A stretch of 64,000 nt of DNA from an uncultured Bdellovibrionales bacterium (GCA_903926205.1 CAIYID010000050.1:1-64000); one strand, 5' to 3'. Positions 27,276 to 61,376 are shown, numbered from the stretch's first letter. Numbers and translations: made by a program. Notes: generated from the letters alone by a model not told the origin.

Positions 27276-27299
27276 CATTATTTGGAGAGTTTGATTATT

Positions 27300-28301: not shown

Positions 28302-28311
28302 GAGGTAGAAG

Positions 28312-28641: not shown

Positions 28642-28705
28642 AGACTGAGTTTAAGCTAAAAAGAGCTCTTAAATAGAGCGCAAGACGCAGGGTGAAAAAA
28701 GTTTT

Positions 28706-29068: not shown

Positions 29069-29172
29069 CTAGCTAACAAGTTGAGAGCGCGAAGCTAAGA
29101 AAATGAATGAAAGTGCATGATCAAATATGATCGAAAAGTACAGAGGAGCGAGCGAATGAAGGAGATAAAAAA

Positions 29173-29433: not shown

Positions 29434-29498
29434 GTGATAGGTTGATTGATTTGTTGGTGGGTTGATGCGAATTGGTTTTAGCAAGTGGAGTTTAACTA

Positions 29499-35855: not shown

Positions 35856-36151
35856 TGCTAATCCTTGATGATAAAAGAAAAGATCTACGAATTGAGTCGG
35901 TAAAGGCGCAATTCGAGTTTGAAGGCCAAGTCTTCAATATCCAAAACATCTCGAGGGATGCTTTGTTGTTTTCAAATATTTACGGATTTACTCCGAGTTT
36001 GTTGGAGCGGTTAACGGCAGGTCCTTTCGAATTCTCCTTGGTCGACTCACTCAATGGGAGCAAGCTCAAGCTCTGGGGTCGAGTCGTTCGCTGTCTTGAG
36101 GTTGGAGAGGTGATTTGTGGTATTGCCGTTTCTTTCGGGTTTGACCAATAA
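35855..36151 (+). CDS. PilZ-like c-di-GMP-binding domain protein
   Basis: The 98-residue protein is a small beta barrel with an R-K-D-L-R element near the N-terminus (PilZ R-x3-R) and N-I-S-R-D-A in place of the usual (D/N)-x-S-x-x-G, so the final Gly is Ala. It may bind c-di-GMP weakly or be a degenerate PilZ adaptor. The start overlaps the mamK stop and its 3' end overlaps the next gene by 35 nt. Its tie to MamK suggests second-messenger control of chain position (inference). Confidence 0.6.
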   Translation: MLILDDKRKDLRIESVKAQFEFEGQVFNIQNISRDALLFSNIYGFTPSLLERLTAGPFEFSLVDSLNGSKLKLWGRVVRCLEVGEVICGIAVSFGFDQ

Positions 36152-37031
36152 AAAACAAGTAAAAAGAGTGATTGCCATTGGCGGCTCAAAGGGCGGCATT
36201 GGCAAAACTGTGGTTTCTGTCAACTTAGCGCTTGCGCTTTCTCGGATTGGAAAATCCGTCGTCATTTTTGATGCTGATTTAGGTAATGCCAATTGCCACA
36301 CACTGCTTGGTGTTCGACGAATTGAAAAATCTCTCGATGATTATTTATTAGGTAAGGCTTCGATGGAAGAGATGACCGTCACCACGCCTTTTCCGAATCT
36401 AAAGCTCATTTGTGGAGCTTCAAGTAAAGCGGATCAACTTTTACGTGATCCTGCTCAAAAAGCGCGACTTTTTGGGGATTTATCGGCTTTGACTTATGAT
36501 TTCGTTCTTTTTGATTTAGGTGCTGGCGTTGGCGATGAGATGCTGGAGTTATACAATCTTGCGGATGAAAAGATCATGGTGGCAACGTCGCAGTTCACCG
36601 CTTTGCAAAATGCTTACTCCTTTGTAAAATCTGCTTACCTGCTTGAAATTAAAAGTCGACCACATTTAAACATACTCCTTAGCAACGTTGGAGAAGATCC
36701 AATAAAGTTAAGAAATCTCATGCAGCAGTTATCAGATTCCTCTTCAGAAAAAGCGGAGTATGCAGCTGTCATGAAGCGACAAAGATTTAGCATTATTGGA
36801 AATATGATGAATAATCAGAATGACCTCAATATTATTCATAAGCTCAGTTCTATTGTAAAAGAATATTTGGGTTTAGAAACTCAATTCCTCGGCGCTCTCG
36901 CTCAAAGCACGGAGGTTCAATCGTCCATTAATAAATTGACGCCTTTTCTCGAGTTGTTTCCGAATTGTGAAAACAGTCAAGAGCTGCGAACCATCGCCAT
37001 CAAAATCAACAGTCAGCAAGAAGCGGGTTAG
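36117..37031 (+). CDS. MinD/FleN-type ParA-superfamily ATPase
   Basis: The frame starts at GTG 36117. The 304-residue protein has a deviant Walker A (GGSKGGIGKTVVSVNLA near 25), a switch I region with FDADLGNAN, and a switch II FDLGAGVGDE in place of the ParA DTPP. This pattern is typical of FleN/YlxH/MinD-like regulators. It lacks an obvious C-terminal membrane-binding helix. These ATPases place flagella, pili and organelles. In the MamK operon it probably positions the magnetosome chain or couples it to the cell pole. Confidence 0.82.
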   Translation: MVLPFLSGLTNKKQVKRVIAIGGSKGGIGKTVVSVNLALALSRIGKSVVIFDADLGNANCHTLLGVRRIEKSLDDYLLGKASMEEMTVTTPFPNLKLICGASSKADQLLRDPAQKARLFGDLSALTYDFVLFDLGAGVGDEMLELYNLADEKIMVATSQFTALQNAYSFVKSAYLLEIKSRPHLNILLSNVGEDPIKLRNLMQQLSDSSSEKAEYAAVMKRQRFSIIGNMMNNQNDLNIIHKLSSIVKEYLGLETQFLGALAQSTEVQSSINKLTPFLELFPNCENSQELRTIAIKINSQQEAG

Positions 37032-43608: not shown

Positions 43609-44202
43609 ATGAGTATCGGTCGCCAAAAAAATTTTTTCAAAATCAAGTCACAACATCGCTATTCCTATGGCGGAGTCCTAAGGAACAAAAGGCTCGGGAG
43701 AGGCCAGAGGCCGCTCCCCACGCGCGAGCCCATTCACGTTGTTTTCAAAATTAACAAGAATCATTATTTAACTAAAAGTCTTCGCTCGCCAAAGTGCTTT
43801 GCGCTGATTCAACGACTGCTGAAAAAATATTCAATTCGTTTTTTTGTCAAAGTGGAGCAAGCTTCGATTCAACACGATCATCTTCATTTACTCCTGCGAG
43901 CGCCCAGGCGATGTCAAATTCACCACTTTTTCAGAGTGTTTGCCGGGCAAATTTCGCAGCAACTGCAGGCCGTGATCGAGGCCCCCTCACAAAGGGTGAC
44001 CGGTACCCCCGAGAAAAGTGAAAGGAAGAAAAGTCTTTGGAAGTACAGGCCTTTTTCACGAGTGGTAAAAAGTTATCGGGCTTACAAGATCGTAAGAGAC
44101 TATATTCAACTCAACGAACAGGAAGCTTTGGGGAAAATCTCATACCAAAAAAATCGATTACGAGGGCTTTCCAGTGGTGATTGGACTATTTTGTGGACTT
44201 AA
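43609..44202 (+). CDS. REP-associated Y1 (HUH) transposase
   Basis: The 197-residue protein has the HUH metal site in a Q-H-D-H-L-H-L-L-L segment near residue 88 and a catalytic Tyr in the 'AYKIVRDYI' helix. 'HVVFKINKNHYL' at the start and 'WKYRPFSRVVKS' later are typical of the TnpA-REP/IS200-related family. The N-terminal R/K-rich part is longer than usual. No flanking REP pair is evident, so it may be a domesticated single-copy gene. It marks a break between the ParA genes and an unrelated transporter. Confidence 0.8.
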   Translation: MSIGRQKNFFKIKSQHRYSYGGVLRNKRLGRGQRPLPTREPIHVVFKINKNHYLTKSLRSPKCFALIQRLLKKYSIRFFVKVEQASIQHDHLHLLLRAPRRCQIHHFFRVFAGQISQQLQAVIEAPSQRVTGTPEKSERKKSLWKYRPFSRVVKSYRAYKIVRDYIQLNEQEALGKISYQKNRLRGLSSGDWTILWT

Positions 44203-46200: not shown

Positions 46201-48198
46201 ATGTCCGAAAATTCACGCCAGAGCTTAAATGAAAATTTACGAAAGAACTCACGTATAGTCATTGTCGGAAATATGAACGTTGGTAAAACCACTTTGTTCA
46301 ATTATTTTTGTGGTTCTCGCACGAAAAGCGTTAATTTTCCTGGAAGCACAGTGGCGGTTTCCGTGGGTACCGTTCGTGGTTTATCTGTTGATCTTATTGA
46401 TACGCCGGGCTCGCTTTCGATTTTTGGCAGCAATGAAGATGAGCAAGTTTTTAGAAATATTCTTTTTGCTCCCGCACCTCATGCGCAACCTTCTGGGGCG
46501 ATCTTGGTGGCCGATGCTAAAAATTTGAAGCGTTCTTTAGCACTCGCCTTGCAATACATAGAATACGGGATACCTCTTCTGCTCGACCTGAATATGATTG
46601 ATGAAGCCGATTCTCGCGGAATTTCAATTGATACAGACGCGCTGGCTGAAATTTTGGGGATCGATGTTTTCACTTCTGTAGCGACTGAAGGTCGAGGCTT
46701 GAGTGAGATTAAAGCTAAGTTGGAAGAATTGCGACTCCCGCAGAATTTGGTGACTTATCCTCCTCGAGTGGAAGAGTATATCGATCTGACGGCCAAACTT
46801 TTGGTTTCCAAAAAGGCCGATAGTAAAATAAAATCTGTTCGCGCCATTGCCATTTTGCTTTTGACTGAAGATAAGGGCATTGAGTCGCTCTTAGAGAAAA
46901 GTTTTGGCGAGGGCACGCTGGCTCAGCTCAATGATTTGGCGGACCAATATCGACGGGCGGAAACCACCCCGTTGAATACGACGCTGGCGGCGCTGTACAA
47001 TAAAACGGCAGAAGCGATCGTAAAAAAAGTTCAGGAGGTCGAGCCTTCGGCAAAAAATCCCTCGATTGAAAAGTTTAGCCGCTGGTGCACGACGCCTAAG
47101 ACCGGGGTTCCAATTGCTTTTTTTGTCGCGTGTTTAATGTATTTATTTGTGGGCTCTTTTGGTGCCACTTATCTTGTGGATGCCGTTCACGGTCAGTTTT
47201 TTGATGGCTTACTGATGCCTTGGCTAAAAAATTTATTGGCTCCTTTGCCTAATGAATTTATTCGAGACATGTTTATCGATCCTGATTTTGGAATTTTTCC
47301 AATGGGATTATTTTTAGCGGCAGGCTTGGTTTTTCCTGTTCTCCTCTGCTTTTATTTCTTTTTCGGTTTTTTAGAAGACTCTGGTTATTTGCCCAGGCTT
47401 TCTGTTTTGCTCGATAAGGTCTTTCGCAAAATTGGACTTAACGGGAAGGGCGTTTTACCGATTGTTATGGGCTTTTCGTGCATCACTATGGCGATTCTCA
47501 CGGCCCGCATGCTGGATAGCCGTAAACAAAGAATGATCGCAACGCTGGTGCTTATTTTAGGAGTCCCTTGCGCTCCCATGTTTGGAATTATGTTTGTGAT
47601 TCTCGGACGATTGCCAGTTTCTGCGGCATTGACGATTTTAGGGATTATTGTTTTTCAAATATTTCTGATGGGTTTTTTGGCTAATAAGCTGATGCCGGGG
47701 AAGCGGGCGGCTCTTCTTATGGAGCTTCCACCCATGCGCTGGCCGAAGCCAGGTAAGGTCATTAAGAATGCCTTTTTGCGAAGCTACTTTTTTATGAAAG
47801 AGGCCGTTCCGGTATTTGTGGCGGCGTCGATTTTTGTTTTTGTCTTTGATCGTTTGGGGGGCTTAAGCGTTGCTGCGAAGGCTTTGAATCCTGTGGTGGT
47901 GAAGCTTCTTGGTCTTCCTGAAGAGAGCGTCACGGTTTTTATTAAAACGATCATCCGCAAAGAAAGTGGAATTGCAACCTTGCAACATTATAGCTCCAAA
48001 TATTCAAATCTTCAGATGGTGGTGAACCTCCTGATGATGTTGTTGCTCATGCCTTGTATTAATTCGATGGTTGTGATTATAAAAGAACAAGGTAAAAAAA
48101 CAGGGATGCTAATGATTGGCGCCGTGACAGGTTACGCGCTATTGCTGGGAACGATTTTGAATCATATCTGCCGAATTTTTAATATCACTTTTATGTAA
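46201..48198 (+). CDS. feoB: Ferrous iron transporter FeoB
   Basis: ATG 46201 has GAAGGAG upstream. The 665-residue protein has an N-terminal GTPase domain (G1 GNMNVGKTT near 22, G2 region T-x-V, G3 DTPGS, G4 NMID), a helical spacer, and membrane gate regions with the 'FFFGFLEDSGYLPRL', 'GFSCITMAILTAR' and C-terminal 'IIRKESGIATL' signatures. It imports Fe(II) through the inner membrane. It is somewhat shorter than usual because the C-terminal tail is missing. feoB genes (e.g. mad17-type) are regular members of magnetosome clusters, so this copy is probably dedicated to magnetosome iron. Confidence 0.92.
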   Translation: MSENSRQSLNENLRKNSRIVIVGNMNVGKTTLFNYFCGSRTKSVNFPGSTVAVSVGTVRGLSVDLIDTPGSLSIFGSNEDEQVFRNILFAPAPHAQPSGAILVADAKNLKRSLALALQYIEYGIPLLLDLNMIDEADSRGISIDTDALAEILGIDVFTSVATEGRGLSEIKAKLEELRLPQNLVTYPPRVEEYIDLTAKLLVSKKADSKIKSVRAIAILLLTEDKGIESLLEKSFGEGTLAQLNDLADQYRRAETTPLNTTLAALYNKTAEAIVKKVQEVEPSAKNPSIEKFSRWCTTPKTGVPIAFFVACLMYLFVGSFGATYLVDAVHGQFFDGLLMPWLKNLLAPLPNEFIRDMFIDPDFGIFPMGLFLAAGLVFPVLLCFYFFFGFLEDSGYLPRLSVLLDKVFRKIGLNGKGVLPIVMGFSCITMAILTARMLDSRKQRMIATLVLILGVPCAPMFGIMFVILGRLPVSAALTILGIIVFQIFLMGFLANKLMPGKRAALLMELPPMRWPKPGKVIKNAFLRSYFFMKEAVPVFVAASIFVFVFDRLGGLSVAAKALNPVVVKLLGLPEESVTVFIKTIIRKESGIATLQHYSSKYSNLQMVVNLLMMLLLMPCINSMVVIIKEQGKKTGMLMIGAVTGYALLLGTILNHICRIFNITFM

Positions 48199-48219
48199 AA
48201 TTTTAGGCAAGGAGGAGCT

Positions 48220-48876
48220 ATGTTTCCGAATGAACGACAAGATGAAATTCTCGAGGCCATCTGGACAGCTTCTGAAAAAAAAGAGTACTCTCTTGAAGAG
48301 ATAAAAAAAGCCTGTGTCATTGACATTTCTGACGTGGATATCACGGCTTTGGTTGACGGTGGCCTGCTGATAAAAAGCGGGGATAAAATTTTATTTTCTA
48401 TGGAAGGTAAAGCTTTTGCCCAAGGGGTGATTCGTCGCCATCGATTGGCGGAAGTTCTTGTTCATAGTATTCTCAAGCTCAAGAATGCTCAAATGGAAGA
48501 AATTGCTTGCAAAGTGGAGCACACTCTTTTGCCAGAAATTGAGCAGTCGATTTGTACCTTGCTGGGGCATCCGGAGCGCGCTCCCGATGGATCTTTGATT
48601 CCGCTCGGTGCCTGCTGTGGTCAAAAGCTGCGAACAGTGGATACCATGGTGACAAGTTTGAGCGAATTAAAAGCCGGGGAGAATGCAAAAGTGATGTATA
48701 TTCGTCCTTCGGATCACTCTCAGCTTCATCAGCTTTTGTCTTTTGGACTAAGCCCCGGTGTTATTTTAAATGTTCACCAGACGTCTCCGGCGGTCTGCAT
48801 TAAATTTGAAAATACCGAACTGGCATTAGATAAAGAGACCGCAACGAATATTTTTGTTTTACGAACGAAGACTTAA
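48220..48876 (+). CDS. DtxR/IdeR-type iron regulator with FeoA-like C-terminus
   Basis: GGAGG precedes ATG 48220. The 218-residue protein has a helix-turn-helix N-terminal domain (about 1-70), a dimerisation domain with the metal motifs R-H-R-L-A-E and C97-K-V-E100-H101 as in DtxR, the 'LGHPERAPDGSLIP' turn, and an SH3/FeoA-like domain (about 145-215). It lies 21 nt after feoB and so likely represses or tunes the feoB operon with Fe(II) or Mn(II) as corepressor. The ancillary ligand set appears complete by eye. Confidence 0.85.
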   Translation: MFPNERQDEILEAIWTASEKKEYSLEEIKKACVIDISDVDITALVDGGLLIKSGDKILFSMEGKAFAQGVIRRHRLAEVLVHSILKLKNAQMEEIACKVEHTLLPEIEQSICTLLGHPERAPDGSLIPLGACCGQKLRTVDTMVTSLSELKAGENAKVMYIRPSDHSQLHQLLSFGLSPGVILNVHQTSPAVCIKFENTELALDKETATNIFVLRTKT

Positions 48877-48883: not shown

Positions 48884-49168
48884 TTAAGTCGCTTTTTTGC
48901 GCTTAGCATTTGTGCTAGGCTCTACTTTAATCTCTGCGTCGTCATCGGATTCAGTTACATTGTCAGAGTCCTTGTCTTTTTGACTATTTTTAAACAATGC
49001 GTTCGATCCTTGCATTTTTTTAAGGCCTGAAACAATTGCTGCAATGCCAAAGATTAACAATAAAAGAGGAACAACTCCTTTAAAGATATCCATAAATATA
49101 AACCACCACTTAACAAAACCCCAAACACTTAACAACAGCGCAACAACCCCGAATAATATACCGTACAT
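48884..49168 (-). CDS. mamI: MamI-like magnetosome membrane protein (third copy)
   Basis: ATG 49168 has AAAGGA upstream and gives the standard MamI beginning M-Y-G-I-L-F-G; ATG 49204 is an alternative with GGGAG. The 94-residue protein has the two helices and the turn W-W-F-I-F-M-D-I-F-K-G-V-V-P-L of MamI, plus a Lys/Asp/Glu-rich tail of about 45 residues not present in the other copies. It faces away from the coiled-coil operon and converges on the DtxR gene. Confidence 0.7.
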   Translation of the reverse strand: MYGILFGVVALLLSVWGFVKWWFIFMDIFKGVVPLLLLIFGIAAIVSGLKKMQGSNALFKNSQKDKDSDNVTESDDDAEIKVEPSTNAKRKKAT

Positions 49169-49378
49169 CTGTGTGTTCCTTTTTATGTAGTTTCTGATCT
49201 GCATTAATATGCTCCCACAAATAAACTTTTGGTGGCAAGCGAATTTCAGGAAGACAGTCAAAAGTGGGGATGAAAACTTCCATCTGTTGGCCTCTTGTTT
49301 GTATTGACATGATGTCGAGACCTCACTCTAATTATAGGGTTACAGTCACAGTGAGCTAGACTTAAGGAGCGGAATCAA

Positions 49379-50803
49379 ATGAAACAAGGAAATCAGGATA
49401 GCGAAAACTTTGAGAGTGAAACCGAGGGCGTCGTTCGTGCGACTAATGAAATGGCAAAAAAAATGGTGGAAGCCATGGTGAGTGGGAGTGCTCTTTTTAT
49501 GAAGGGTGCCGGAAAGTCCTTGGGCTGCATGGGCTCTGGTTTGAAAAGCCTGGCTGAAGGGACGAAACGTCTCACGGGAGTGACCTCACGAGAGATGAAG
49601 GGTGTTTTTACCGGCGGCCTTCGAAAAAAACAGGGGCTCAATAGGTCGGAAGTTAAAGCGCGAATTGCCACTCTTGAAAATGATATTCGGGAGTCTTATC
49701 TGAAGGTTGGGAAAATTGGCTCTGGCATTGAAAACAAAGAGCAGCTTTTCGAAGTTCCTGAAATTCGAGAGCTCATTGAGAAAATCAAGACTTATGAAAA
49801 CCAAGCCAATGCTCTGAAAAAATATTTACTCAAACTCGATGCCGCAGAAAAACAACATGTGGCCGCAGAGACCGTTCCTTTTGAGGATGGGGAAGCCGGT
49901 TTTGATAAAGTTAAAAAAAGAACAAAGCATGCCATCGAAGAGGCCTTGCGAAAAGCCAAATTTTCTTTGCAGTCGGATGCCATTATTTTCCGAAAAGCGC
50001 TTTATGATTTGCTCGATGATGAGATTGAAATTAAAAGATTGGCCGTCAGCGAATTAGGTAAAATGGGCGACAAACACGCCTGTGGCGCTCTGAAAGAGGC
50101 CCTTGAATTCGGAGACTCGCAATTGCAGGCAGAGATTATTAACTCCTTGGTTCGCTTAGAAGACCGAGACACTTTTACTATTTGCAAACAGTTCATCAAG
50201 CACGATTATGCTCCAGTTCGCACCGCTTGTGTGCGCGGACTTTACAAATCTGGTCGTAACGATTCAGTTCCTTATTTCATTGAAGCGCTGAAAGATGAAA
50301 ACGTCGAAGTCCGAAACTCTGGCGCGATGTTCCTCGGTTGGTGTGAAGCTCAGGGGGCAGTGCCGGCGCTTTTGCAAGCGGCCAGTGACTCTGACAAGCG
50401 CGTTCGCAAGAGTGCGATTTTATCACTTTCAAACATTCGTGATACGACGGCGGTGTTACCTCTGATTCGACTTCTGGATACGGACGATGAAGTTTTGCAA
50501 AAAGCGACACTCACTGCGATTGAAAGAATTGCGGGCTTTGCGGTTTCCTTCAAAGGCGGAGAGAAAGCCGAAAGAGTCCGAAGCGTCGAAGAACTCAAAG
50601 AATGGTGGCTTGCGAAGCTTTACGAGGGCTCAGAGTCTAAGACGGAGCCTGCATCCGCAGGCGTCCAGATGAATCTACAACCACGATCGCAAACAATTCC
50701 CACAGAGCCAGCGGCCAATTCAGAATCCGAGGTTACAGAGGAATCGAAACCACAGTCTCGTAAACGTCACCGCAATACGAATAAAGGTGGGGAGTCAGTC
50801 TAA
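49379..50803 (+). CDS. HEAT-repeat protein
   Basis: The 474-residue protein has an N-terminal region with Met/Gly/Lys-rich amphipathic helices (about 20-85), a short coiled coil (about 88-150), and then five or six HEAT/PBS-lyase repeats (about 200-400; for example 'VRTACVRGLYKSGRNDSVPY' and 'VRKSAILSLSNIRD'). A Ser/Pro/Arg tail closes it. HEAT repeats serve as protein scaffolds. It opens a nine-gene, tightly coupled plus-strand operon that ends with the kinase at 61.4 kb. The N-terminal amphipathic part might bind membrane. Confidence 0.75.
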   Translation: MKQGNQDSENFESETEGVVRATNEMAKKMVEAMVSGSALFMKGAGKSLGCMGSGLKSLAEGTKRLTGVTSREMKGVFTGGLRKKQGLNRSEVKARIATLENDIRESYLKVGKIGSGIENKEQLFEVPEIRELIEKIKTYENQANALKKYLLKLDAAEKQHVAAETVPFEDGEAGFDKVKKRTKHAIEEALRKAKFSLQSDAIIFRKALYDLLDDEIEIKRLAVSELGKMGDKHACGALKEALEFGDSQLQAEIINSLVRLEDRDTFTICKQFIKHDYAPVRTACVRGLYKSGRNDSVPYFIEALKDENVEVRNSGAMFLGWCEAQGAVPALLQAASDSDKRVRKSAILSLSNIRDTTAVLPLIRLLDTDDEVLQKATLTAIERIAGFAVSFKGGEKAERVRSVEELKEWWLAKLYEGSESKTEPASAGVQMNLQPRSQTIPTEPAANSESEVTEESKPQSRKRHRNTNKGGESV

Positions 50804-51819
50804 TGAACGGCATTCAAAATCTGAAATCCAAAATTCCCTTTGTTAAACGAAAAAAAACCGATGTGATCGCGCACTGTGAAGAATCGCTCGGTCAGGTCAT
50901 GACGAAAATTGAAGCCGAGGCTTCATTGAGCGAAGTACGAGAAGATTATGAACTCGTGATGAGTCATCTTTTATTCCTCGCAGACACCGAGCGAGACACT
51001 CGTCTTCACGCACGCATTCGCAATGTGCAGTCAGCGTTTAAAAATGCAAAGGGCTTGACTGAAAAGAAAGCCTTCTTGCAGGTCGAGATCTCGCGCATAC
51101 TTTCTCATCTTTCAAATCTAAAATTTAATCAGACTGAAGCACCAATTTTAGAGACCGCTCCGGCCGAAGAAAGTCTTTCTGAAGTTCTTTTAGACAAACA
51201 GCAAGAAGAGGAACAGGCGGCGTTTGAGTCTTCATCCTATAGCACAGAAGCTGGTGTTTTTATGGAAACACCAAAGCTTTTGCAACGCTTGCAAGATCTT
51301 CAAGATCGCACGGTTTTTTGCGCTCAAGAAATTGAGAAAGTCACACTTGAGAATCAGACCTTGTTTGAAGGCAACAAAGTGCTTCAGCAAGAGTACAGTC
51401 AAACCACTCAAGCTCATGTTGAATCGAAAGAATCTTTTCGTGTTTTGCAAAATAAAGTGGCTACTGCACAGATTGAATGCAATCGATTACTTTTAGAAGT
51501 GCAATTCTTAACTTCTGAAAGAGCGGGTGTTTTACAAAATCTTGAAAATGAGTACAGTGGTTTAATGAATATGGCGAAACGCTACAAAGATCTTCAACGG
51601 GGCTATGATCTTGCAAAAGATGAGACCGGTGTTTACGAAGATTTGCTCACGCAAGTTGATTCGCTCTTAGGACGCACTCGCCACGAAAATAAAGTTTTGA
51701 TTGAAAAAACCTCTGACTCCGAAAAAACCATGGAAAATCTTATCGGCGAATTAAGAACCATTATAAAAAAGGGAAAAGTGCAATTTTATTCCCAATTAGA
51801 GAGTGAGTCTAAAACATGA
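50803..51819 (+). CDS. Coiled-coil protein, magnetosome scaffold candidate
   Basis: The start overlaps the stop of the HEAT gene (TAATG). The 338 residues are mostly helical: an N-terminal domain to about 110, an acidic linker (about 110-150), and a long heptad coiled coil (about 155-330). No enzymatic motif is seen. Deltaproteobacterial magnetosome clusters contain a similar run of coiled-coil genes (mad23-mad26) beside an actin-like gene. The exact counterpart needs a profile search. Confidence 0.65.
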   Translation: MNGIQNLKSKIPFVKRKKTDVIAHCEESLGQVMTKIEAEASLSEVREDYELVMSHLLFLADTERDTRLHARIRNVQSAFKNAKGLTEKKAFLQVEISRILSHLSNLKFNQTEAPILETAPAEESLSEVLLDKQQEEEQAAFESSSYSTEAGVFMETPKLLQRLQDLQDRTVFCAQEIEKVTLENQTLFEGNKVLQQEYSQTTQAHVESKESFRVLQNKVATAQIECNRLLLEVQFLTSERAGVLQNLENEYSGLMNMAKRYKDLQRGYDLAKDETGVYEDLLTQVDSLLGRTRHENKVLIEKTSDSEKTMENLIGELRTIIKKGKVQFYSQLESESKT

Positions 51820-52370
51820 AGACCGAAGCGATAAATAAAAAAGACAAAACTCAGGAAACTCCTCGATTTAGTTTAGCAAAAATAAAAGAGGGCTTAAAAG
51901 AGCTCACACTCATTCAAACTGGAGATTTAACTAAAGTCTCCGGTGAGGCCATTCAAGAGAACATTCAAAATACCTTGTCAGCGATTCGCGTTTTAGAAGC
52001 GCAGCTCAAAGACACCACCGAAGTGAATTCCGCTCTTCGACTGGAGTCGAAAGGTCGCGACTCCGAAATCACGACGCTCAAACGAACCAATGAGGATCTT
52101 CAATTCAGGTTGAAAGAGTTAGAAAAAGTGACTCCTCACGTGGGCGATTTGGAAGAGCGAATGGATATCGCGGTTGAAAAAATCGAAGAATATAAAACAC
52201 GTTATGAGCACGAAAAAATCAAAGCGAAAGAAATGGCCGCGCAGCTTGATTTCTTAAGTCAAAAATTAAAAAAGACCGAAGAAGAGCGCGACGATGCCTA
52301 CAAAGAAGTCGTTTTGTTGATGAATAAAATGGAGCCCGTCGTAGCGGCGAAGGGAACAGAGAATGGATAA
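51816..52370 (+). CDS. Coiled-coil protein
   Basis: The start overlaps the preceding stop by ATGA. The 184-residue protein is a charged coiled coil over most of its length (about 45-175), with an N-terminal Lys-rich segment. It is too short and simple to classify, but the overlap on both sides (8 nt into the next gene) shows strict co-translation with its coiled-coil neighbours. Confidence 0.6.
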   Translation: MKTEAINKKDKTQETPRFSLAKIKEGLKELTLIQTGDLTKVSGEAIQENIQNTLSAIRVLEAQLKDTTEVNSALRLESKGRDSEITTLKRTNEDLQFRLKELEKVTPHVGDLEERMDIAVEKIEEYKTRYEHEKIKAKEMAAQLDFLSQKLKKTEEERDDAYKEVVLLMNKMEPVVAAKGTENG

Positions 52371-53127
52371 CTCTTCAGGATTGAAAAAAAAGCTCAGCGA
52401 GAACTGGGATCAAATCAAGAATAAATACCCCGTGGTTTCTCGGGCGGAGGCCGTGGCTGATGATCCGATCAAGGTAGACTTTCTTCAAAGCATTGATGGG
52501 ATAAAAAGCGCTGAAGAAATCGGACGGTTTTTTACCTTGAGTTCTAGTGAGTCTCAGATGATTTTTACGGATCTGATGAACTTGGGCGCCATTCGTTTTC
52601 TTGAAGACAGTGAGCGACTCGGTTATCTCAAAAATCATGCAAATGAGTTGGAGCGAAATCTGACTTTTCTTCGTTCAGAACGTGAACGCCTCAGAGGCGA
52701 ATCCTTGTATTTATCAAAACAAATTCGCGAAAAAACTGATGAAACTGAAAAATATAAAACTCGTTTGCCGGAGTTAGCAGAAACTCTGAAGGAGTTGACC
52801 GATAATCTTGGTTCACAGCAATCGAGATCAGCTCAACTTTGGGAAGAAAATTCTGAACTTTTTGGCGTGGCTAAGGACGTTAAACATAAAACGGCGGTGA
52901 TTTACGAGGGTCTCGGAAAGTTGGAGCATGAACTACCGAGGGTTATAAAGAAAAAGTCAAAAATGGCGGAGAGGTTTAAGAAGACCGATGAAATGCGCCA
53001 TACAGGAATCGATAAGAATAAAGAAATTGAGAAAAAGCTTTTCGATTATCACGATGCCTTGAATGAGGTCCATGAGTACCTTGAAGACACCAAGTTGCGT
53101 GTAAAAAGTTTTTCAGACAATGATTAG
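52363..53127 (+). CDS. Coiled-coil protein with small N-terminal domain
   Basis: The 254-residue protein has a small helical N-terminal domain (about 20-85; D-P-I-K-V-D-F-L-Q-S-I-D-G, resembling a winged-helix 'DUF4388'-type unit) followed by a coiled coil to the end. It overlaps the preceding gene by 8 nt. The domain layout (small adaptor plus coil) fits a structural link in the filament system. Confidence 0.6.
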   Translation: MDNSSGLKKKLSENWDQIKNKYPVVSRAEAVADDPIKVDFLQSIDGIKSAEEIGRFFTLSSSESQMIFTDLMNLGAIRFLEDSERLGYLKNHANELERNLTFLRSERERLRGESLYLSKQIREKTDETEKYKTRLPELAETLKELTDNLGSQQSRSAQLWEENSELFGVAKDVKHKTAVIYEGLGKLEHELPRVIKKKSKMAERFKKTDEMRHTGIDKNKEIEKKLFDYHDALNEVHEYLEDTKLRVKSFSDND

Positions 53128-53162
53128 AGTTCAGATTAGTTGGATTTATTAAGTAGGAATTG

Positions 53163-55085
53163 ATGATGTCGATAGAGTATCCAATCATATTGAAAACTGT
53201 TTCTGGTCGAAAAGAGGCCCTCATACGGCAGCTTCGAACGGATATTTCAGTTTTGAATCGACAGTACAGCATTCTTCAAGAGGGTGCGTCTCTGCAAGAA
53301 TCACTCTGCAAAGACTTGGAATGGCTCATTCATCACGATATTGCCGATGAAATTAAGCTCGCTTTTTATAATCCCATTGATCCGACCATGGTATTTCTAG
53401 AGAAAAAATATAAAATAGGACTTTTCAATTCAGGGGTTTCGAGCACAGGCACTGAGACGGGACGTCCGTCGCAGAATCTGACTCAAGTTTCGATGCCGAG
53501 TCCCTATGAATTTGATGTTTTTGTTTATTTCAAAAAATCCTTTTTGTCTTTAGAGCCTGAAGAGCAAAGCCGAAGACTTAAAAAATTTAAGTTCGGTTGG
53601 TTTGATATGGCGAATATGGATCCAAGCATGGATATGGATTTTGAAGCATCGGATTTGTCGCTTGAGTCTGAATCTCTTGATGAATCGGCCGACCGGGCCG
53701 ACCAACAATCATTGGGTTCATCGTCGGAGTCTCCTTCGAGGATGATGCAAAGTTCAATCTTAGCTCAAACTCCAGCTTCGACATCAAAACAAATATCAGC
53801 GACGCAAGTGTCACCGCTGATGGCTCCTTTTATCGCGGAAAATCACAAACAGTTAATGATTGCTTCTTATACCGATTCTCGAAAACTCATTGGTGAGTTT
53901 ATAAAGATCTCCAGCGCCTTGAGTTTGCATCCGATGCAGTGGACTTACTCCGAGGGATTAAAAGCGCTCAGCCAAAATGAGTTGACTCAGGAAAGTCAAT
54001 TGATCGGGCAAAAACGATTTTCTCCTTGGGAGCTATTGGGTTCTATTCGTAGTGATTGTCAAAATGGTTTCCGAAAAAACACGCTTTATATTTTAGAAGA
54101 TTTTCATTATTACCTGACCCGAGAAAATCTTTCTGGTCAGGAATTTGCGGAAATGATTTCGATGATCAAGTCCCTCACGGAACCTTTGAAGCGAGCCGGT
54201 AGTTTTTTAGTCATACTGGCTCCGAATCATGACTTGCCGGCAGAAATTGCGCCGCTCTTTGAAACAATCAAGGGGGAAGCTGGAAAGAAATCCACGCCTC
54301 TGTTGGAACGTTATGGGCGGGATTTTACTAAACTGGTTTTGGAGAAAAAGATCAAACCGCTGGTTGGTCGAGATAATGAAATTCGCGAATGCTTGAAGAT
54401 TTTATCGCGCCTTGAGGGCAATAATCCACTTTTAGTTGGTAAAGCGGGAGTGGGCAAGACGGCTTTGGTTGAAGGGATGGCGACGAAAATCGTCAAAAAC
54501 GAAGTTCCAGAATCTTTTCGGAATAAAAGACTAATTGCACTGAATTTAAATGCGATGATCTCGGGAACGAAATACCGAGGAGAATTCGAAAAACGTCTCG
54601 AGGGAATACTTGAAGAAGTGATGTCGAATAAAGAGAGTATCATTATTTTTATTGATGAAATTCATACTCTCTTAGGAATGGGGAGCACCGAAGGTTCAGC
54701 GGGTGCCGAAAATGTTTTAAAACCTTATTTGGCGCGAGGAGATTTTCCCTGTATTGGCGCGACCACGTATGAAGAATACAAAAAGCATATTGAGCCCGAT
54801 CGTGCTTTAGCGCGAAGGTTTCAAATGGTTGATGTGGCGGAGCCTTCGGCGCAAGAAACCTATCAAATTTTACTGGGTATCAAAAATATTTACGAGAGCC
54901 ATCATCGGGTTAAAATTTCAAACGAAGCACTTGTGAAATGTGTTCAGGTTTCCGAAAATATACCGAATCAGTACTTTCCAGGTAAGGCGATTAAATTGCT
55001 CGATAGTGTGTGTTCTGCGGTCTCTTTTGCCGGCAAAGATCTTGTTGGCTCAGACAGTGTGGTTGAAGAATTTGAAAGACTTTAG
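53163..55085 (+). CDS. AAA+ ATPase with ClpA/ClpB D1-like module and degenerate N-terminal AAA-like domain
   Basis: ATG 53163 (or 53166) follows TAGGAA. The roughly 640-residue protein has a unique N-terminal part (1-165) and a Ser-rich linker (165-220). Next is a region (about 235-400) with 'ILEDFHYYL' and 'FLVILAPNHDLP', which resembles the degenerate N-terminal domain of Ycf46-type ATPases. A single ClpA/B D1-type AAA+ module (about 400-640) follows: Walker A GKAGVGKTAL, Walker B IIIFIDEIH, and A-L-A-R-R-F arginine fingers. Clp N-domain and D2 are absent. A disassembly or remodelling role for the neighbouring filaments is likely. Confidence 0.75.
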   Translation: MMSIEYPIILKTVSGRKEALIRQLRTDISVLNRQYSILQEGASLQESLCKDLEWLIHHDIADEIKLAFYNPIDPTMVFLEKKYKIGLFNSGVSSTGTETGRPSQNLTQVSMPSPYEFDVFVYFKKSFLSLEPEEQSRRLKKFKFGWFDMANMDPSMDMDFEASDLSLESESLDESADRADQQSLGSSSESPSRMMQSSILAQTPASTSKQISATQVSPLMAPFIAENHKQLMIASYTDSRKLIGEFIKISSALSLHPMQWTYSEGLKALSQNELTQESQLIGQKRFSPWELLGSIRSDCQNGFRKNTLYILEDFHYYLTRENLSGQEFAEMISMIKSLTEPLKRAGSFLVILAPNHDLPAEIAPLFETIKGEAGKKSTPLLERYGRDFTKLVLEKKIKPLVGRDNEIRECLKILSRLEGNNPLLVGKAGVGKTALVEGMATKIVKNEVPESFRNKRLIALNLNAMISGTKYRGEFEKRLEGILEEVMSNKESIIIFIDEIHTLLGMGSTEGSAGAENVLKPYLARGDFPCIGATTYEEYKKHIEPDRALARRFQMVDVAEPSAQETYQILLGIKNIYESHHRVKISNEALVKCVQVSENIPNQYFPGKAIKLLDSVCSAVSFAGKDLVGSDSVVEEFERL

Positions 55086-55097
55086 TGGGGGGAATTT

Positions 55098-57101
55098 GTG
55101 AAAGCTCGAAAAAAAATTCTAGTCGTTGATGTGGATCCTCAATTTTTGAAAGAGTTCAAAAATGAGCTAGGTCTTCAATATGAAGTGGAAAGTTGTAACA
55201 CGGGCAAGGCGGCTTTGGGCTTATTTAAAAAATATCATCCGCAAGTTCTTATTATTGATGAAGCGGTGGTAGACATGACGATTGTCGAAGTCTTGCAAGC
55301 CGCGGGCGAACATGTGGTGAAAATTATTACCACCAAAGCCTTGCCAGAAAATGAAATGATTTTTTCTTGCATAGACTCCAAACAAGCACATACCTGTTTT
55401 GTCAAACCTTTGAACTATTCAGAGTTAAAAAATGTGATTGAAAGAGTTTCCGCCTTTGACGGAGGTGCCCACTCTGCTGACGCCAATGTTGATCCTGTTT
55501 ACCAAAAAGTGTCGACGATCTTAGATAAAGTGAACGATGCGGAAATTCGCGAAAAAACGGCCAAGATTCAAATTGAAAAAGCCCGAAAGCTGGAAGAAGA
55601 AAGCTTGGCTCGTGTTCAATGGCTGGATCGCGATGTGAAGCAGTTTAAAGATAAAATCAAAGAGCTGGATAAAGAAATGTTAGCTTGGAGGGAAAAAGCC
55701 AAGCACATCGAAGATCAAAATGAAATCCTGGTGAAAGAAAAAGAAAAAATTCAAGATTCCTTGAAGGAAATTGAAATTCAAATTGAAGCAACCAGTGTTG
55801 CGACGGTGAAGGTCTCCCCCGATTTGAAAGGTGGCGGACGCGAAAAAATTGATGGAAAAAATGCCGTCTTGTTTGTGGATGATGAAGAGGACGTGAGAGG
55901 TCTCTGCGAGACTGTGTTCAGAACGGTCTTTAAGGTTTATGTCGCCGAAAGTGCCGATGCGGCGATGGCAAGTTTGCAGCAACATCCCGAGATCGCCCTG
56001 GTCGTTACCGATTTTAGAATGCCTAAAAAAACGGGAATCAACTTGGCGACGGAAGCTCGCAAGGCTTATCCTGATTTGCCTATTTTTCTTCTTACTGGTT
56101 ATGGGGAGATGGATTTAGCGATCAAAGCGATGAATGAAGGTGTTATTCAACAATATTACGCCAAACCTTTTGTGACGGATCAAATGATCGAAGCGATTCG
56201 CACCGCCATTGAAAAAAGTGAAGAAACAGTGGTGCAAAAAACTCTGGTTCAAGAGAAAAAAGCTCTGGTGGTTGATCGGATTCGAGAGCTAGTGGCTAAA
56301 GAAGAAAGTCTTCAATACAATTATTCAAAGCTTCGAGAAGAACACGGACGAACTCAAAAAATTCAGGAAAAAATGGCCAGTGATTTATCGCAGGCAAAAA
56401 CGGAAAGCGCGGAGCTGAGGGTTTCTGTAGGGAAAGAACGAGAAACGCTCAGAGTGGAAATGACAGAAAAGGCCCGTAAAGCTGACGCAGAAATTTCAAA
56501 AAAACTTGAAGAGGCTTCGCGGCTCATCGAAGTAGAAAAGCAAAAGAACAAAGATGAGCTCGTGCTGCTAGAGAAAAAATTCAAAGAAGATAAAGAAAAA
56601 GTCGAACAGCATCTAGAAGAAATGCGAAAACAAATGGCCAGCGAAAAACAGCTCGTTGAGCAACAAGTGCTAGAAGAACGCAAAAAGGGCGAAGCGGAGC
56701 TGGTGAAGATCAAAGAAAGCATCGCCAATATGAAAGCGAAAATCGAAGAAGATATTCGTAAAGAGCTTGAGGCCAAGAAAAAGGCTGTTGAGGCAGAGAT
56801 TGATGCGAAGAAAAAAGCGGTGGAAGCAGAGATTGAGGCTTTAAAGAAAACGGTGACGAAAGATCTAGATCGAGCCAATGCAGAGTTGCAACAGGCGACT
56901 CGTGAACTTCGGTCGAAAGACGAAGAATTACAGACCCGGGTACGGTCTTATGCAGAATTAGAAAAAGAAGTTCAACAAACGAAACTCGAAAAAAACAAGG
57001 CCCTTAAAGAATGTGAAGCAATGAAGGGGGAATATGAATTTATTGTTCAATCTCGTGCTTCTCTTGAGGCCGAAATAAATGAGCTCAAAGGAGTTAGATA
57101 A
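55098..57101 (+). CDS. Double-receiver coiled-coil protein
   Basis: GTG 55098 has GGGGGGAA upstream. The 667-residue protein has a divergent receiver (about 1-120; Asp in LIIDEAVVDM, Lys in VKPL) and a coiled coil (about 130-240). A canonical receiver (about 250-375) follows: FVDDEED, Asp in VVTDFRMP, Thr in LLTGYG, and Lys in AKPF. A very long Lys/Glu-rich coiled coil runs to about 665. No output domain is present. Phosphorylation could control coil assembly. The receiver-PAS-kinase at the operon end is the natural phosphodonor. Confidence 0.8.
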   Translation: MKARKKILVVDVDPQFLKEFKNELGLQYEVESCNTGKAALGLFKKYHPQVLIIDEAVVDMTIVEVLQAAGEHVVKIITTKALPENEMIFSCIDSKQAHTCFVKPLNYSELKNVIERVSAFDGGAHSADANVDPVYQKVSTILDKVNDAEIREKTAKIQIEKARKLEEESLARVQWLDRDVKQFKDKIKELDKEMLAWREKAKHIEDQNEILVKEKEKIQDSLKEIEIQIEATSVATVKVSPDLKGGGREKIDGKNAVLFVDDEEDVRGLCETVFRTVFKVYVAESADAAMASLQQHPEIALVVTDFRMPKKTGINLATEARKAYPDLPIFLLTGYGEMDLAIKAMNEGVIQQYYAKPFVTDQMIEAIRTAIEKSEETVVQKTLVQEKKALVVDRIRELVAKEESLQYNYSKLREEHGRTQKIQEKMASDLSQAKTESAELRVSVGKERETLRVEMTEKARKADAEISKKLEEASRLIEVEKQKNKDELVLLEKKFKEDKEKVEQHLEEMRKQMASEKQLVEQQVLEERKKGEAELVKIKESIANMKAKIEEDIRKELEAKKKAVEAEIDAKKKAVEAEIEALKKTVTKDLDRANAELQQATRELRSKDEELQTRVRSYAELEKEVQQTKLEKNKALKECEAMKGEYEFIVQSRASLEAEINELKGVR

Positions 57102-58306
57102 TGGCAGCAAATGATGTAACAATTCCAGTTGGCGGAGAACTGGGAACTTCGGCGAGTAAATTTTGTTGTGGTGATACGGTGCTCTTATTTTCTTCCGTTG
57201 TGGGCGACGCGCTCACGGAATCGATGGAAAATAGCTGGCGTCACATGAATCGCTCGGTGGATTCTCGGTGGATCAAAAATCTGGCAGTGTTTGATGATTC
57301 GCGAAATGCCTGGCGCTATGTCGGAGCGATGACCAGACGCTCGGAAAAAACGGATTGGTTTACTAACAAGGGTTTGATCTCAAATTACGATGATGCTTTT
57401 GTGGCGATCAAAGCGGGTCTTTTTTTGCTCTATTTGGAAATGGAAAAAAAGGGCCAAAAACTAGATAAGATTGGACTGGGTTTCGGGATCACCGTTCGGC
57501 ACGGTGAAAACGTGATTGAAAAGTTTTTTGCTTATATTAAAGATCATATGGTTGCTCGTGGTGATAAAAAATTTCTGATTATTAAAGCGAAGAACGTGGC
57601 ATTGAATGAAGTACGGGAAATTGAAATTCAATTGGATTTCTGTGTGATGCAGTACCAAGCCTATGGGGCTTACATGGCTTTGTTGTTTAGCAAGTACAAT
57701 ATGTCTGTTCATAATACTTATATTATTGATATTGGCCATGGCACTTGGATTAAACTTCCGGTCATAGATAACGAGGCCGAAATTGGTCTTTCAGATTCAT
57801 TCACCGAAGGCATTCACACGATCACGCGAAATATTAGTAATGTGATTTTTGAAAGCAGCGAACAAAAATTTAAAATACCAGAACAACGTCTGATGGAACG
57901 CCTTCCGACCAAGGATTATAAAATTGAAGTGCCCGGAGCGGGAGTTTTTGATTTTTCGAAATTACTGGAACAACAAACCACCATCGTGGCTCGTGATATC
58001 GGTGATCGGGTGGCGGCGGACATGGCAACCTTGTCGCAAAAAGGTCAAAGCATTGACTACTTTATTATCATTGGCGGTGGTGCCCATTTGCTTTTTGATA
58101 AAGTCAAAAAGAACATCGGTGATTATTTCGGATGGCCACAAGATGTCGTGGATCAAAGGGTTCTTGATTCGGCTTCGACCGGAGTTGATTCCCGGCACAT
58201 CAACTGTGTTGGGTTTATGCTTTTAGCCAGGGACCAAATTGCCATGGATAAAGGTGAAGATGTTCAACCCGGTTTTTCAATCACAAATATTGTAAAAGAA
58301 CTTTAA
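57101..58306 (+). CDS. Divergent ParM/Alp-like actin homolog (first)
   Basis: The start overlaps the preceding stop (TAATG). The 401-residue protein has an actin-type nucleotide fold of the ParM kind: phosphate-1 region V-G-G-E-L-G-T-S-A-S-K with Glu in place of the usual Asp, phosphate-2 motif IIDIGHGTWIKL, and adenosine motif FIIIGGGAHLLF. Its length and the 'FFAYIKDHMV' and 'FCVMQYQAYGAYMALL' segments set it apart from MamK. An actin-like gene (mad28) lies beside coiled-coil genes in other deltaproteobacterial clusters, so this is a candidate counterpart. Confidence 0.75.
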   Translation: MAANDVTIPVGGELGTSASKFCCGDTVLLFSSVVGDALTESMENSWRHMNRSVDSRWIKNLAVFDDSRNAWRYVGAMTRRSEKTDWFTNKGLISNYDDAFVAIKAGLFLLYLEMEKKGQKLDKIGLGFGITVRHGENVIEKFFAYIKDHMVARGDKKFLIIKAKNVALNEVREIEIQLDFCVMQYQAYGAYMALLFSKYNMSVHNTYIIDIGHGTWIKLPVIDNEAEIGLSDSFTEGIHTITRNISNVIFESSEQKFKIPEQRLMERLPTKDYKIEVPGAGVFDFSKLLEQQTTIVARDIGDRVAADMATLSQKGQSIDYFIIIGGGAHLLFDKVKKNIGDYFGWPQDVVDQRVLDSASTGVDSRHINCVGFMLLARDQIAMDKGEDVQPGFSITNIVKEL

Positions 58307-58330
58307 AGTCGATTTTTTTTGGAGGTTTAT

Positions 58331-58834
58331 ATGGAAGATACATCTTATCTCGTCATTGATTCAGAATTGGAAAGTTTGTTTTTACGTCTTGGGAAACAGC
58401 ATCCCGAAGGTTCGAAGGATGCCTTGAAAATTGTGCTCAAAACTTATTTAAAGTTGGCCGAAGGCAGTCGTCGAAGAGGCGTGGATCCTATTTTGAGTTT
58501 GCAAGAGCTCGTTGAGCGAATCACCTCAGGAGATTTGTATCGAACGACGAAAGACAAAATCGATCATTTGGATACTCTGCTGGAGAAAAAAGAGGATCAA
58601 GTCGAGCATCTAGAAAATTCAGCGGTGCTGGAAGAGATTCGCGAAATCAAAAACACCATTCGTAAGATGAGTGGAACTGCGAGTCGAGCGACTCAAACTT
58701 CTGGATTAAGTGAATTCAATCCCAGCGATGCCGCGAAGTTGATCACGGTGGAACAATCTGGTGAGATTAAAAAAGGGGAGAATTACCAAAACCTAAGAAA
58801 AAAAGGTAAACCCCACAAAAAAATAAATTTCTAA
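58331..58834 (+). CDS. Small helical protein between two actin genes
   Basis: ATG 58331 has GGAGG and is preferred over the in-frame TTG at 58319. The roughly 167-residue protein is helical in the first 90 residues, has a short coiled coil (about 75-115), and a basic Lys/Asn tail. It might be an adaptor for one of the flanking actins, comparable to the ParR of a ParM system, but it lacks a ribbon-helix-helix signature that I can see. Confidence 0.55.
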   Translation: MEDTSYLVIDSELESLFLRLGKQHPEGSKDALKIVLKTYLKLAEGSRRRGVDPILSLQELVERITSGDLYRTTKDKIDHLDTLLEKKEDQVEHLENSAVLEEIREIKNTIRKMSGTASRATQTSGLSEFNPSDAAKLITVEQSGEIKKGENYQNLRKKGKPHKKINF

Positions 58835-58870
58835 AATTGAAAACTCAAGTAACGTGGCGAAAGTTACGAC

Positions 58871-59896
58871 GTGAAAAAGATCTATATTGATCCTGGCGGA
58901 TTTTATACAAAAGTTTATGTTCTTGAACATGACCAGGCGACAGGTCATGTTCAATTTTTTGGAAGAAGTTTTTTTCCTTCAGCGGCAACATCGATCTTAA
59001 CTCTCCAGGAGCGGTCTCTCTGCTATGAGCACGAGGGCCGCATTTATCTTGTCGGCAGTGATTGCAATAATGCCCTTTGGGATCTCGATGACCTAAGTCC
59101 TGATGGCCTTAGGCATCGTGATTTAGTGGCGCGCTTGCTCGTGAGGAAAGCTCTTTTTGATTACACCGAGCCCGAAGAAGAAATCGACTTAAATATTCTC
59201 AGTGATGGCACAGTGAAAAGAGAAATCTTTGAAGACCTTGGTGCTGAGTTCACAGGACGTTTGGAACTTGCGGCTTACCGTGGTGACAAAAAAATTACTC
59301 GTTTCCTGAATGTTAAAGCACAGATTCTGGCCGCCAGTGAAGGAGTCTTAGGTTATATTCAAAAAATTAAAACAGATTTTTCTTCGGCGTTTCTGATTGA
59401 TATCGGCTACCGCTCGACAAAAATGTATGTGGTGACAGCGAAGCAGGGCGTTGAGAAATTCGCTTTTTGGGAATTCGGCACAAAATTTTATTCTGAGGCT
59501 ATTTTGCGTGCTCTAGAAAGTGAAGGCCTCCCCGCGACTGAACCTTATTGGTTGATGAAGCAAATTGAATTAGGGTGCCAGTCTTTGGACTTGCCTAATA
59601 TTCCTCCAGTCGGGGTTTCACTGATTATTGAAAATGCCCGATGGGATACGAATAAAGATTTTAGGAGACTCACGACAGATTTTATTACCGATTATTATAA
59701 TACCAATGCAAAATGGGTGGAGCTACTTGTGATTACTGGAGGCGGGGCGCTTTTTAATGGAGAGCTCCTTTCGACTTCCTTGTCTGAAATGGGCTATGAA
59801 TTTGATGATATTTACATTGATAAAAGCCCACTCTATACCCTGATTGAAGGGGTGGTTCAATTGGAGAGTGGTTCCAGAAAGGTTTCGTATGACTAA
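58871..59896 (+). CDS. Divergent ParM/Alp-like actin homolog (second)
   Basis: The frame starts at GTG 58871. The 341-residue protein has the phosphate-1 motif IYIDPGGFYTKVYV, phosphate-2 motif LIDIGYRSTKMYVV and adenosine motif VITGGGALFNGELL of a ParM-type actin. It differs from both MamK and the 57101 product and is the third actin-like protein here. The stop overlaps the following kinase gene by 8 nt, tying the filament to a two-component system. Confidence 0.75.
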   Translation: MKKIYIDPGGFYTKVYVLEHDQATGHVQFFGRSFFPSAATSILTLQERSLCYEHEGRIYLVGSDCNNALWDLDDLSPDGLRHRDLVARLLVRKALFDYTEPEEEIDLNILSDGTVKREIFEDLGAEFTGRLELAAYRGDKKITRFLNVKAQILAASEGVLGYIQKIKTDFSSAFLIDIGYRSTKMYVVTAKQGVEKFAFWEFGTKFYSEAILRALESEGLPATEPYWLMKQIELGCQSLDLPNIPPVGVSLIIENARWDTNKDFRRLTTDFITDYYNTNAKWVELLVITGGGALFNGELLSTSLSEMGYEFDDIYIDKSPLYTLIEGVVQLESGSRKVSYD

Positions 59897-61376
59897 AAAT
59901 AAAATTTTAATTATCGACGACGAAGAAGACATTCGCCTGACGTTGGAGGAACTTTTAGTTCGGACGGGATATCAAATTCAAGGTGCTGGTGACGGTATTG
60001 AAGGTCTAAAACTGCTAGAAACTTTTAAGCCGGAGTTAGTGATTACAGATTTAAAAATGCCGAACATGAGTGGTTCGGAATTTATATCAAAAGCAAAAAA
60101 TTTAGTTCCAAGCGTTGATGTGATCCTGATGACCGGTTATGGGGATAAAGAAATTGTAATCGAGTGTTTGCGCCAAGGGCTTTTTGATTATTTCGATAAA
60201 CCATTCAACTATCAAAAGATGGTCCTTTCGGTAAAAAAATGTTTTGAGCTCCGAAAAATAAAAAAAGAATTAAGTGATGAAAAAAACTTCACTGAAAATA
60301 TCCTCAATAATTTGCATGAGATTGTCATCGCCATTGATAATCAAGGAAAAATTTCTTATATCAATTCCGTCACTATCAATTTGTTAGGTTTTAAAGCTGA
60401 AGAGCTTATCGGTCAGTCACTTTTGTTGTTGATACCTGATTATGATTCCTTCAATGCGGTGGCGGAGTCGAAAGAGTCAATTGAGCAGGATCTCCTTTGT
60501 GCTGTCAAAGGGGGTGGCGAGAAAATTCCTATGACTTTGATAGTTGCAGATTTTATCGACAATGCGGGATTGAAAAAGGGCAAGGTCTTAGTCGGTCGAG
60601 ATGTTCGTGAACTCCGAAAATTACAATTGTTGACCTATCAAACAGAAAAATTAGCTTCCGTGGGCACCTTAGCCGCTGGGATTGCTCATGAATTAAATAG
60701 TCCCTTAGCTGTTGTTTTAGGCTATGCCACTGAAATTCAAAAAATTATTAAGGAGTCTGATTATAATCCTCAAAAAAATGAAGATGTAATAAGCTATCTT
60801 GGAATGATTCACAAATCAGCGACAAGGATGAAAGTGATCGTCAGTAATCTGCTCACGCTATCGAGAAAAAGCGAGCACACCGATCCTCATGAACTCAATA
60901 TTAATGAGTTGATCAAAGAAGCTTTTGCTTTTCATAAAACGAGTTTTGAAGAAAAAAATATCGATGTTGGTTTCTTTCTTTCGGAGAGCCTTTATAAATC
61001 TTGGGGAGATCCCGATCAAATTCAGACTATTTTTATGAATCTTTTGGGTAATTCTGCAGATGCTTTTGGAGAAATCACCGACGAGCGAGAAAAGCGAGTT
61101 TCCTTCACGACTTCTAATGAAGTACTGATGGAAGAAGGTGTCGCGAAACCAGTACTGAAAATCATTTACGAAGACAATGCTTGTGGCATGAGTGAGTCCA
61201 CTGTTAAAAAATTATTTGACCCATTTTTTACGACTAAATCTGTAGGTAAGGGAACAGGTCTTGGGATGTCGGTCACGCTTGCCGCAATTAAGGCTCACAA
61301 AGGCACTGTTTCGGTGGAAAGTGAACTTGGCAAGGGTGTGAAGTTCACAATCCATTTACCAGCTGTCACCGAGTAG
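59889..61376 (+). CDS. Receiver-PAS-histidine kinase
   Basis: ATG 59889 has AGAAAGG upstream and overlaps the actin stop. The roughly 495-residue cytoplasmic protein has an N-terminal receiver (Asp in LVITDLKMP, Lys in DKPF), a PAS domain (about 140-250), a HisKA-type dimerisation helix with the His in IAHELNSPL near 270, and an ATPase domain (N-box NLLGNSADAF, G-box GLGMSVTLA). It may phosphorylate the double-receiver coiled-coil protein of the same operon. Its own receiver could receive input from the hybrid kinase at 9.3 kb (inference). Confidence 0.88.
   Translation: MTKNKILIIDDEEDIRLTLEELLVRTGYQIQGAGDGIEGLKLLETFKPELVITDLKMPNMSGSEFISKAKNLVPSVDVILMTGYGDKEIVIECLRQGLFDYFDKPFNYQKMVLSVKKCFELRKIKKELSDEKNFTENILNNLHEIVIAIDNQGKISYINSVTINLLGFKAEELIGQSLLLLIPDYDSFNAVAESKESIEQDLLCAVKGGGEKIPMTLIVADFIDNAGLKKGKVLVGRDVRELRKLQLLTYQTEKLASVGTLAAGIAHELNSPLAVVLGYATEIQKIIKESDYNPQKNEDVISYLGMIHKSATRMKVIVSNLLTLSRKSEHTDPHELNINELIKEAFAFHKTSFEEKNIDVGFFLSESLYKSWGDPDQIQTIFMNLLGNSADAFGEITDEREKRVSFTTSNEVLMEEGVAKPVLKIIYEDNACGMSESTVKKLFDPFFTTKSVGKGTGLGMSVTLAAIKAHKGTVSVESELGKGVKFTIHLPAVTE

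Follow-up and report, generated by a model that had tools for sequence, protein, structure and literature searches.

A ten-gene operon with two ParM/Alp-type actins and a one-ring AAA+ protein in the magnetosome gene cluster of an uncultured Bdellovibrionales bacterium

How are magnetosomes aligned in bacteria that lack the actin MamK? For the Bdellovibrionota this is stated as open in a 2026 paper (PMC13200544), according to which mamK is absent from the clusters, mad28 is present, the replacement of MamK is unknown and Mad28 is suggested for it. The DNA analyzed here is a stretch of 64,000 nucleotides from an uncultured Bdellovibrionales bacterium (GCA_903926205.1 CAIYID010000050.1:1-64000; the window), part of the 74,685-bp contig C50 of a 3.34 Mb genome that is 99.96% complete. 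It carries an operon at 49379-61376 which sits within a magnetosome gene cluster and supplies candidates that travel with that cluster, namely the actins actA and actB, an adaptor-like protein and an AAA+ protein. The operon is read as the chain-organizing machine of MamK-less magnetotactic bacteria, with a Mad scaffold, an actA/actB filament, an adaptor, recycling by the AAA+ protein and control by a receiver-coil (REC-coil) protein and a kinase. The chances of this reading were judged a little better than even.

Ten open reading frames (ORFs) were found on one strand:

49379-50803, plus strand: Mad23, HEAT-repeat protein, chain scaffold (HEAT_2, E 7e-25)
50803-51819, plus strand: coiled-coil protein cc1, Mad24/25-type by position, exact mad number ambiguous
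51816-52370, plus strand: coiled-coil protein cc2, Mad25-type by position, exact mad number ambiguous
52363-53127, plus strand: coiled-coil protein cc3, Mad26-type by position, N-terminal part conserved, 38-69% identity in relatives
53160-55085, plus strand: AAA+ protein (AAA and AAA_lid_9), an N-terminal half of ~390 aa followed by one ClpA/B D1-type AAA module
55098-57101, plus strand: REC1-coil-REC2-long coil protein with two Response_reg stretches
57101-58306, plus strand: actA, ParM/Alp-type actin, MreB-like_C match above cut-off
58319-58834, plus strand: small adaptor-like protein, 171 aa, start probably ATG 58331, with a helical N-terminal part, a linker and a basic C-terminal tail ending in Phe
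58871-59896, plus strand: actB, second ParM/Alp-type actin, faster-evolving paralogue of actA, nucleotide-binding motif residues conserved
59889-61376, plus strand: REC-PAS-HisKA-HATPase kinase, by domain matches, start ATG 59889

The nine junctions measure, in gene order, -1, -4, -8, +32, +12, -1, +12, +36 and -8 nt, the last of these assuming that the kinase starts at ATG 59889. With this start the ends overlap at five of the nine junctions and the largest gap is 36 nt. A preliminary description of this DNA spoke of a nine-gene overlapping operon. Its gene contents, strand and coordinates stand and its count is corrected to ten, the number of genes that it itself listed.

When the gene order was sought in other genomes, the first nine genes were found in identical order in Kiruna3_bin-3974 (G326, genus CAIRTR01) and LJ_bin-4497 (G327), followed by two-component arrays or kinases, and the core was found elsewhere. 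Genomes of family f12 have the order AAA-actA-small-actB-X-Mad28, with ParA next in most of them and Mad23-26 nearby or elsewhere. The order AAA-REC-actA-small-actB was present in nXX_bin1 (G370), a member of the phylum UBA10199 (PMC7602337). Parts of the operon were present with Mad23 clusters including actA in G369 and G371, and in G489 (UBA10199) actA-small-actB lies beside Mad28, MamI and FeoAB. Several families share the AAA-actA-adaptor-actB core. It also spans at least three phyla, since G370 and G371 fall in two separate small ones (46 and 58 genomes) that both differ from the 368-genome phylum of the window.

The linkage of the operon to magnetosome genes was strict. The search for actA covered the Bdellovibrionota, UBA10199 and other selected genomes; the Nitrospirota were represented by one whole genome and the Desulfobacterota were left out. 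Among 368 Bdellovibrionota genomes actA was found in eight and Mad2 in seven, and all seven are among the eight (hypergeometric 5e-14, ignoring relatedness). These seven all have mamA/Q/B/E-type genes. The eighth genome is 84% complete with a fragmented cluster and retains MamI-, Mad26- and Mad28-type genes. No actA was found in the other 360 Bdellovibrionota genomes, which have no detected cluster, or in 11 Acidobacteria, Nitrospirota and archaeal genomes that hold only a volactin-family actin. In UBA10199 actA was present in 2 of 46 genomes. Viral contigs contained no Mad23 and no actA, and matched the AAA+ protein only through its ClpB-like module. The operon was found only with mam genes, in the Bdellovibrionota and in part in the other phyla. 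The preliminary description would fall if the operon were common in non-magnetotactic relatives; given the near-perfect co-occurrence of actA and Mad2, this was not so in the groups tested. Kiruna3_bin-3974 is drawn in Figure 5 of PMC13200544, which very likely already includes the operon genes; the main-text passages searched in that paper mention no further actins and no AAA+ protein.

Synonymous sites were saturated between the window genome (G000), G326 and G327 (pS 0.7-0.9) and nonsynonymous change was low. The lowest value was that of actA (pN 0.06-0.09), which no other protein of the operon equals in conservation; actB, REC, cc1 and cc2 had the highest values. The same order in two other genomes, kept despite synonymous saturation and limited amino acid change, shows the operon to be more than chance.

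The MreB-like_C domain was matched in all eight actA orthologues and Alp7A_like_C in four. Identity of actA was 85-91% within the closest group and 64-68% elsewhere. On its own actB had no Pfam match, while three of eight actB orthologues matched MreB-like_C and profile comparison paired actB with actA (probability 91, E 1e-6). Both proteins are of the ParM/Alp type by their MreB-like_C, Alp7A_C or ParM domains and nucleotide motifs, the assignment being weaker for actB. PDB profile searches with actA and actB gave no relevant match. The cluster encodes a third actin:

34710-35855, plus strand: Mad28 orthologue, volactin-family actin (PF25216, E 5e-71)

Neither actA nor actB matched PF25216 or had profile similarity to Mad28. 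The MamK model NF040964 did not match actA or actB; it gave 20.4 bits with Mad28 and 469 bits with a true Nitrospirota MamK as positive control. Judged by these sequence comparisons, neither actA nor actB is Mad28 or MamK. The Volactin Pfam family, to which Mad28 belongs, takes its name from an archaeal Haloferax actin. Close relatives of Mad28 were observed in Acidobacteria and an archaeon (loci L070-L080, L124) without cluster genes in the stretches read, with tandem pairs at L071, L074 and L077. A second actA-like gene of 684 aa (36% identity, long C-terminal extension) was present in the Bdellovibrionota genome G094 (L042:4883-6937), near a gene like that of the J-domain protein at 33331. 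In nXX_bin1 (L066:9920-13554) two different Mad28-type actins and a small receiver adjoin the actA-actB core.

In alignments of the small protein between the actins the helical N-terminus and the basic C-terminal tail are conserved, with a strand-helix-helix-like pattern. There was no Pfam match and no relevant relative in the PDB profile search. By inspection only, its architecture recalls ParR.

Walker A, Walker B, a Tyr pore loop (TKYRGEFE) and RRF are invariant across the aligned orthologues of the AAA+ protein. Its N-terminal half of ~390 aa is without known relatives. It shares with ClpB/ClpC (Hsp100) the first AAA ring with the Tyr pore loop, and differs in having one ring, no second ring and a new N-terminal half. 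It is not a two-ring ClpB/Hsp100 protein, as its single D1-type module scored 326 bits against a cut-off of 1232. A degenerate second AAA domain in the N-terminal half was considered and was unsupported, since the middle of that half had no similarity to the AAA module by profile comparison. Within 39 relatives searched the AAA part was matched only by ClpB/ClpA-like proteins. Full-length homologues were restricted to magnetosome-type clusters among the genomes searched, and in the phylum of G371 one was found in G371 alone. The protein named Mad27 is described only as having an ATPase domain (PMC9840458) and is ~508 aa long in FSS-1 (PMC7951924). Either the AAA+ protein or the kinase may be the product of the gene elsewhere named mad27. 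A J-domain protein is encoded at 33331-34056 inside the magnetosome cluster, with homologues near the clusters of relatives; it may act together with the Hsp100-like AAA+ protein.

The operon has genes of the phosphorelay type, for a HisKA/HATPase kinase and a receiver with a phospho-Asp (REC2). G369 has lost REC2, which is canonical in the other sequences. Two Bdellovibrionota genomes and the LJ_bin-0460 genome carry arrays of related kinases alongside the operon. The preliminary description called the AAA+ and two-component genes striking additions. This is true beside the Nitrospirota, where the loci read had neither the AAA+ nor the REC-coil gene adjoining Mad23. It does not extend to Bdellovibrionota-type clusters, where these genes are standard and for which PMC13200544 already reports 5-10 contiguous two-component genes nearby.

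The front of the operon, Mad23 followed by small coiled-coil genes, corresponds to the known mad23-26 chain module. Coiled coil was predicted in cc1-cc3, with long coils in the REC protein; the scores are approximate. Mad23 orthologues were present in 19 of 19 genomes of one Nitrospirota magnetotactic family. In the Nitrospirota genome G383 one row runs from MamQ through two genes (coiled-coil in relatives) and one further gene to Mad23, then through four small genes to a volactin-family actin, which a single small gene separates from a ParA-type ATPase, so that the volactin family member lies between Mad23 and the ParA-type (Mad29) gene. This row agrees with the mad23-26/28/29 content given in PMC9840458 and with the mad28-mad29 neighborhood given in PMC9376291. 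The volactin-family actin is thereby identified as Mad28, which in the window is the gene at 34710. The likeness to the mad23-28 region claimed in the preliminary description applies to the front, and the two actins of the operon are not from that set. Mad23, small coiled-coil genes, Mad28 and Mad29 are shared with mad23-24-25-26-28-29 of G383. In the Nitrospirota loci read, AAA+, REC-coil, actA, adaptor and actB are absent around Mad23, and MamK is present. In Solidesulfovibrio magneticus RS-1, Mad23, Mad25 and Mad26 join magnetosomes into subchains, Mad28 holds them at the curved side and MamK distributes them (PMC12748827). The window resembles this Mad20/23/25/26-MamK-Mad28 module in the Mad23 HEAT protein and coiled-coil partners heading the operon, the linked actin and the magnetosome cluster. 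It differs in having no MamK and a separate Mad28, and in adding the AAA+ protein, the REC-coil protein, two ParM-type actins and the adaptor-like protein.

RpoB of the window genome (L241) was 96% identical to that of a genus mate, 84-85% within the family and 64% to that of G326 (L238), whereas actA was 87% identical to its G326 counterpart. In the actA and AAA trees the window grouped with G326 and G327 with full support, in conflict with the RpoB tree. A misbinned contig is unlikely, as the repeat transposase of the contig is represented by 75-86% copies on the other contigs and by 57-60% copies within the genus, against only ~26% in G326. From the conflicting trees and the native contig, the cluster (20340-61376) was transferred horizontally, at a time remote enough for synonymous sites to have become saturated, and the operon entered this genome by that route. 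The last 174 aa of Mad28 in G489 (L229:11088-11612) are 87% identical to those of the window, against 76% for G326, though the actA of G489 is 66% identical. These values suggest mosaic transfer between phyla.

If the operon is a chain-organizing machine, Mad23 and the three coiled-coil proteins would link magnetosomes into a chain, as shown for their RS-1 homologues. The ATP-binding, ParM/Alp-type actA and actB, a candidate replacement for MamK in the Bdellovibrionota, would form a filament for spacing, moving or partitioning the chain, and the small protein between them would be an adaptor dedicated to joining the actins with the scaffold. Subunits of the filament or the adaptor would be pulled by the Hsp100-like AAA+ ring, so that the structure is dismantled and recycled. 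The REC-coil protein and kinase would set the time or place of dismantling, control being given by REC2 and the kinases. The filament is proposed because of linkage, conservation and family, disassembly because of neighborhood and pore-loop conservation, and control because of gene content only; the AAA+ substrate, the adaptor role and the direction of signaling are likewise putative. It is conceivable, if doubtful, that a plasmid-segregation-type actin pair and adaptor were recruited to build and partition an organelle chain in MamK-less bacteria, and that a one-ring Hsp100-type AAA+ protein under two-component control dismantles it. If true, this would be a regulated, unfoldase-driven bacterial cytoskeleton for organelles. 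ParM-type actins would then gain a role in organelles, and a bacterial actin would have an AAA+ partner of its own.

Several points weigh against the chain machine. The phosphate-1 loop of actA has Glu where most actins carry Asp, and its ATP turnover may be unusual. The phospho-acceptor of REC1 is Thr, Glu or Ser in three of six sequences, and the kinase does not adjoin the core in f12 genomes. With REC1 degenerate in several of the relatives and kinases adjacent only in some genomes, phosphorelay control is something we infer, as is filament remodeling by the AAA+ protein. The latter could instead serve other magnetosome proteins as a chaperone or unfoldase, and Mad28 could by itself take over the task of MamK. 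Were Mad28 (34710) the sole replacement, actA and actB would have another magnetosome job, such as chain segregation at division or curved-cell shaping. The clusters contain Mad28, with which a mamK mutant partly regains its chains (PMC13200544; PMC10653835). By family, ParM/Alp-type actins serve segregation, and ParA-type ATPases occur in the same clusters. This alternative is possible but on the unlikely side, given that actA is better conserved across these genomes than Mad28 is (87 vs 69%) and that every actA found came with a cluster. The likeness of the AAA module to ClpB/ClpC D1 and the J-domain protein in the same cluster would also fit a signaling or protein-quality unit, in which an Hsp100-type unfoldase acting on magnetosome proteins shares the operon with the REC-coil protein and the kinase and none of the three acts on filaments. 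Such a unit is judged rather unlikely. In f12 genomes the AAA+ gene directly adjoins the actin trio, also when the Mad23-26 and REC genes are located elsewhere, which speaks against it. A plasmid or chromosome partition system of the ParMRC type, merely located in the magnetosome cluster, is highly improbable. The Pfam domain set of actA and actB and the adjacent small protein resemble ParM-ParR, but there are two actins, they are magnetosome-linked, a search for centromere-like (parC) iteron arrays found none, actA is absent from the 360 Bdellovibrionota genomes without a detected cluster, and the contig bears repeat transposases native to the genome.

The other features of the cluster were as follows:

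20340-30368, plus strand: mamAB-like set of MamA, MamQ, Mad2, MamB, MamP/E/O-type and MamM-like genes
36117-37031, plus strand: Mad29-type ParA/MinD ATPase
46201-48876, plus strand: FeoB (Mad17) and DtxR/FeoA (Mad30), by family matches
48884-49261, minus strand: MamI, divergent neighbor of the operon (NF040963, 59.4 bits, curated cut-off 80)
49304-49332, plus strand: predicted promoter-like TTGACA-N17-TCTAAT upstream of Mad23, read from the sequence, 11 of 12 consensus bases

The NCBIfam matches to MamA, MamQ, MamB, MamE and MamP in the window were mostly under curated cut-offs. The promoter-like sequence was rejected by the promoter scanner because base 2 of the -10 element is C. Apparent REP-associated-type transposases lie at 43609-44202, inside the magnetosome cluster, and at C50:72308-72874, and several 75-86% copies are found elsewhere in the genome. 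Within the start of actB, a perfect inverted repeat of 12 bp with a T run behind it (58923-58954) is terminator-like.

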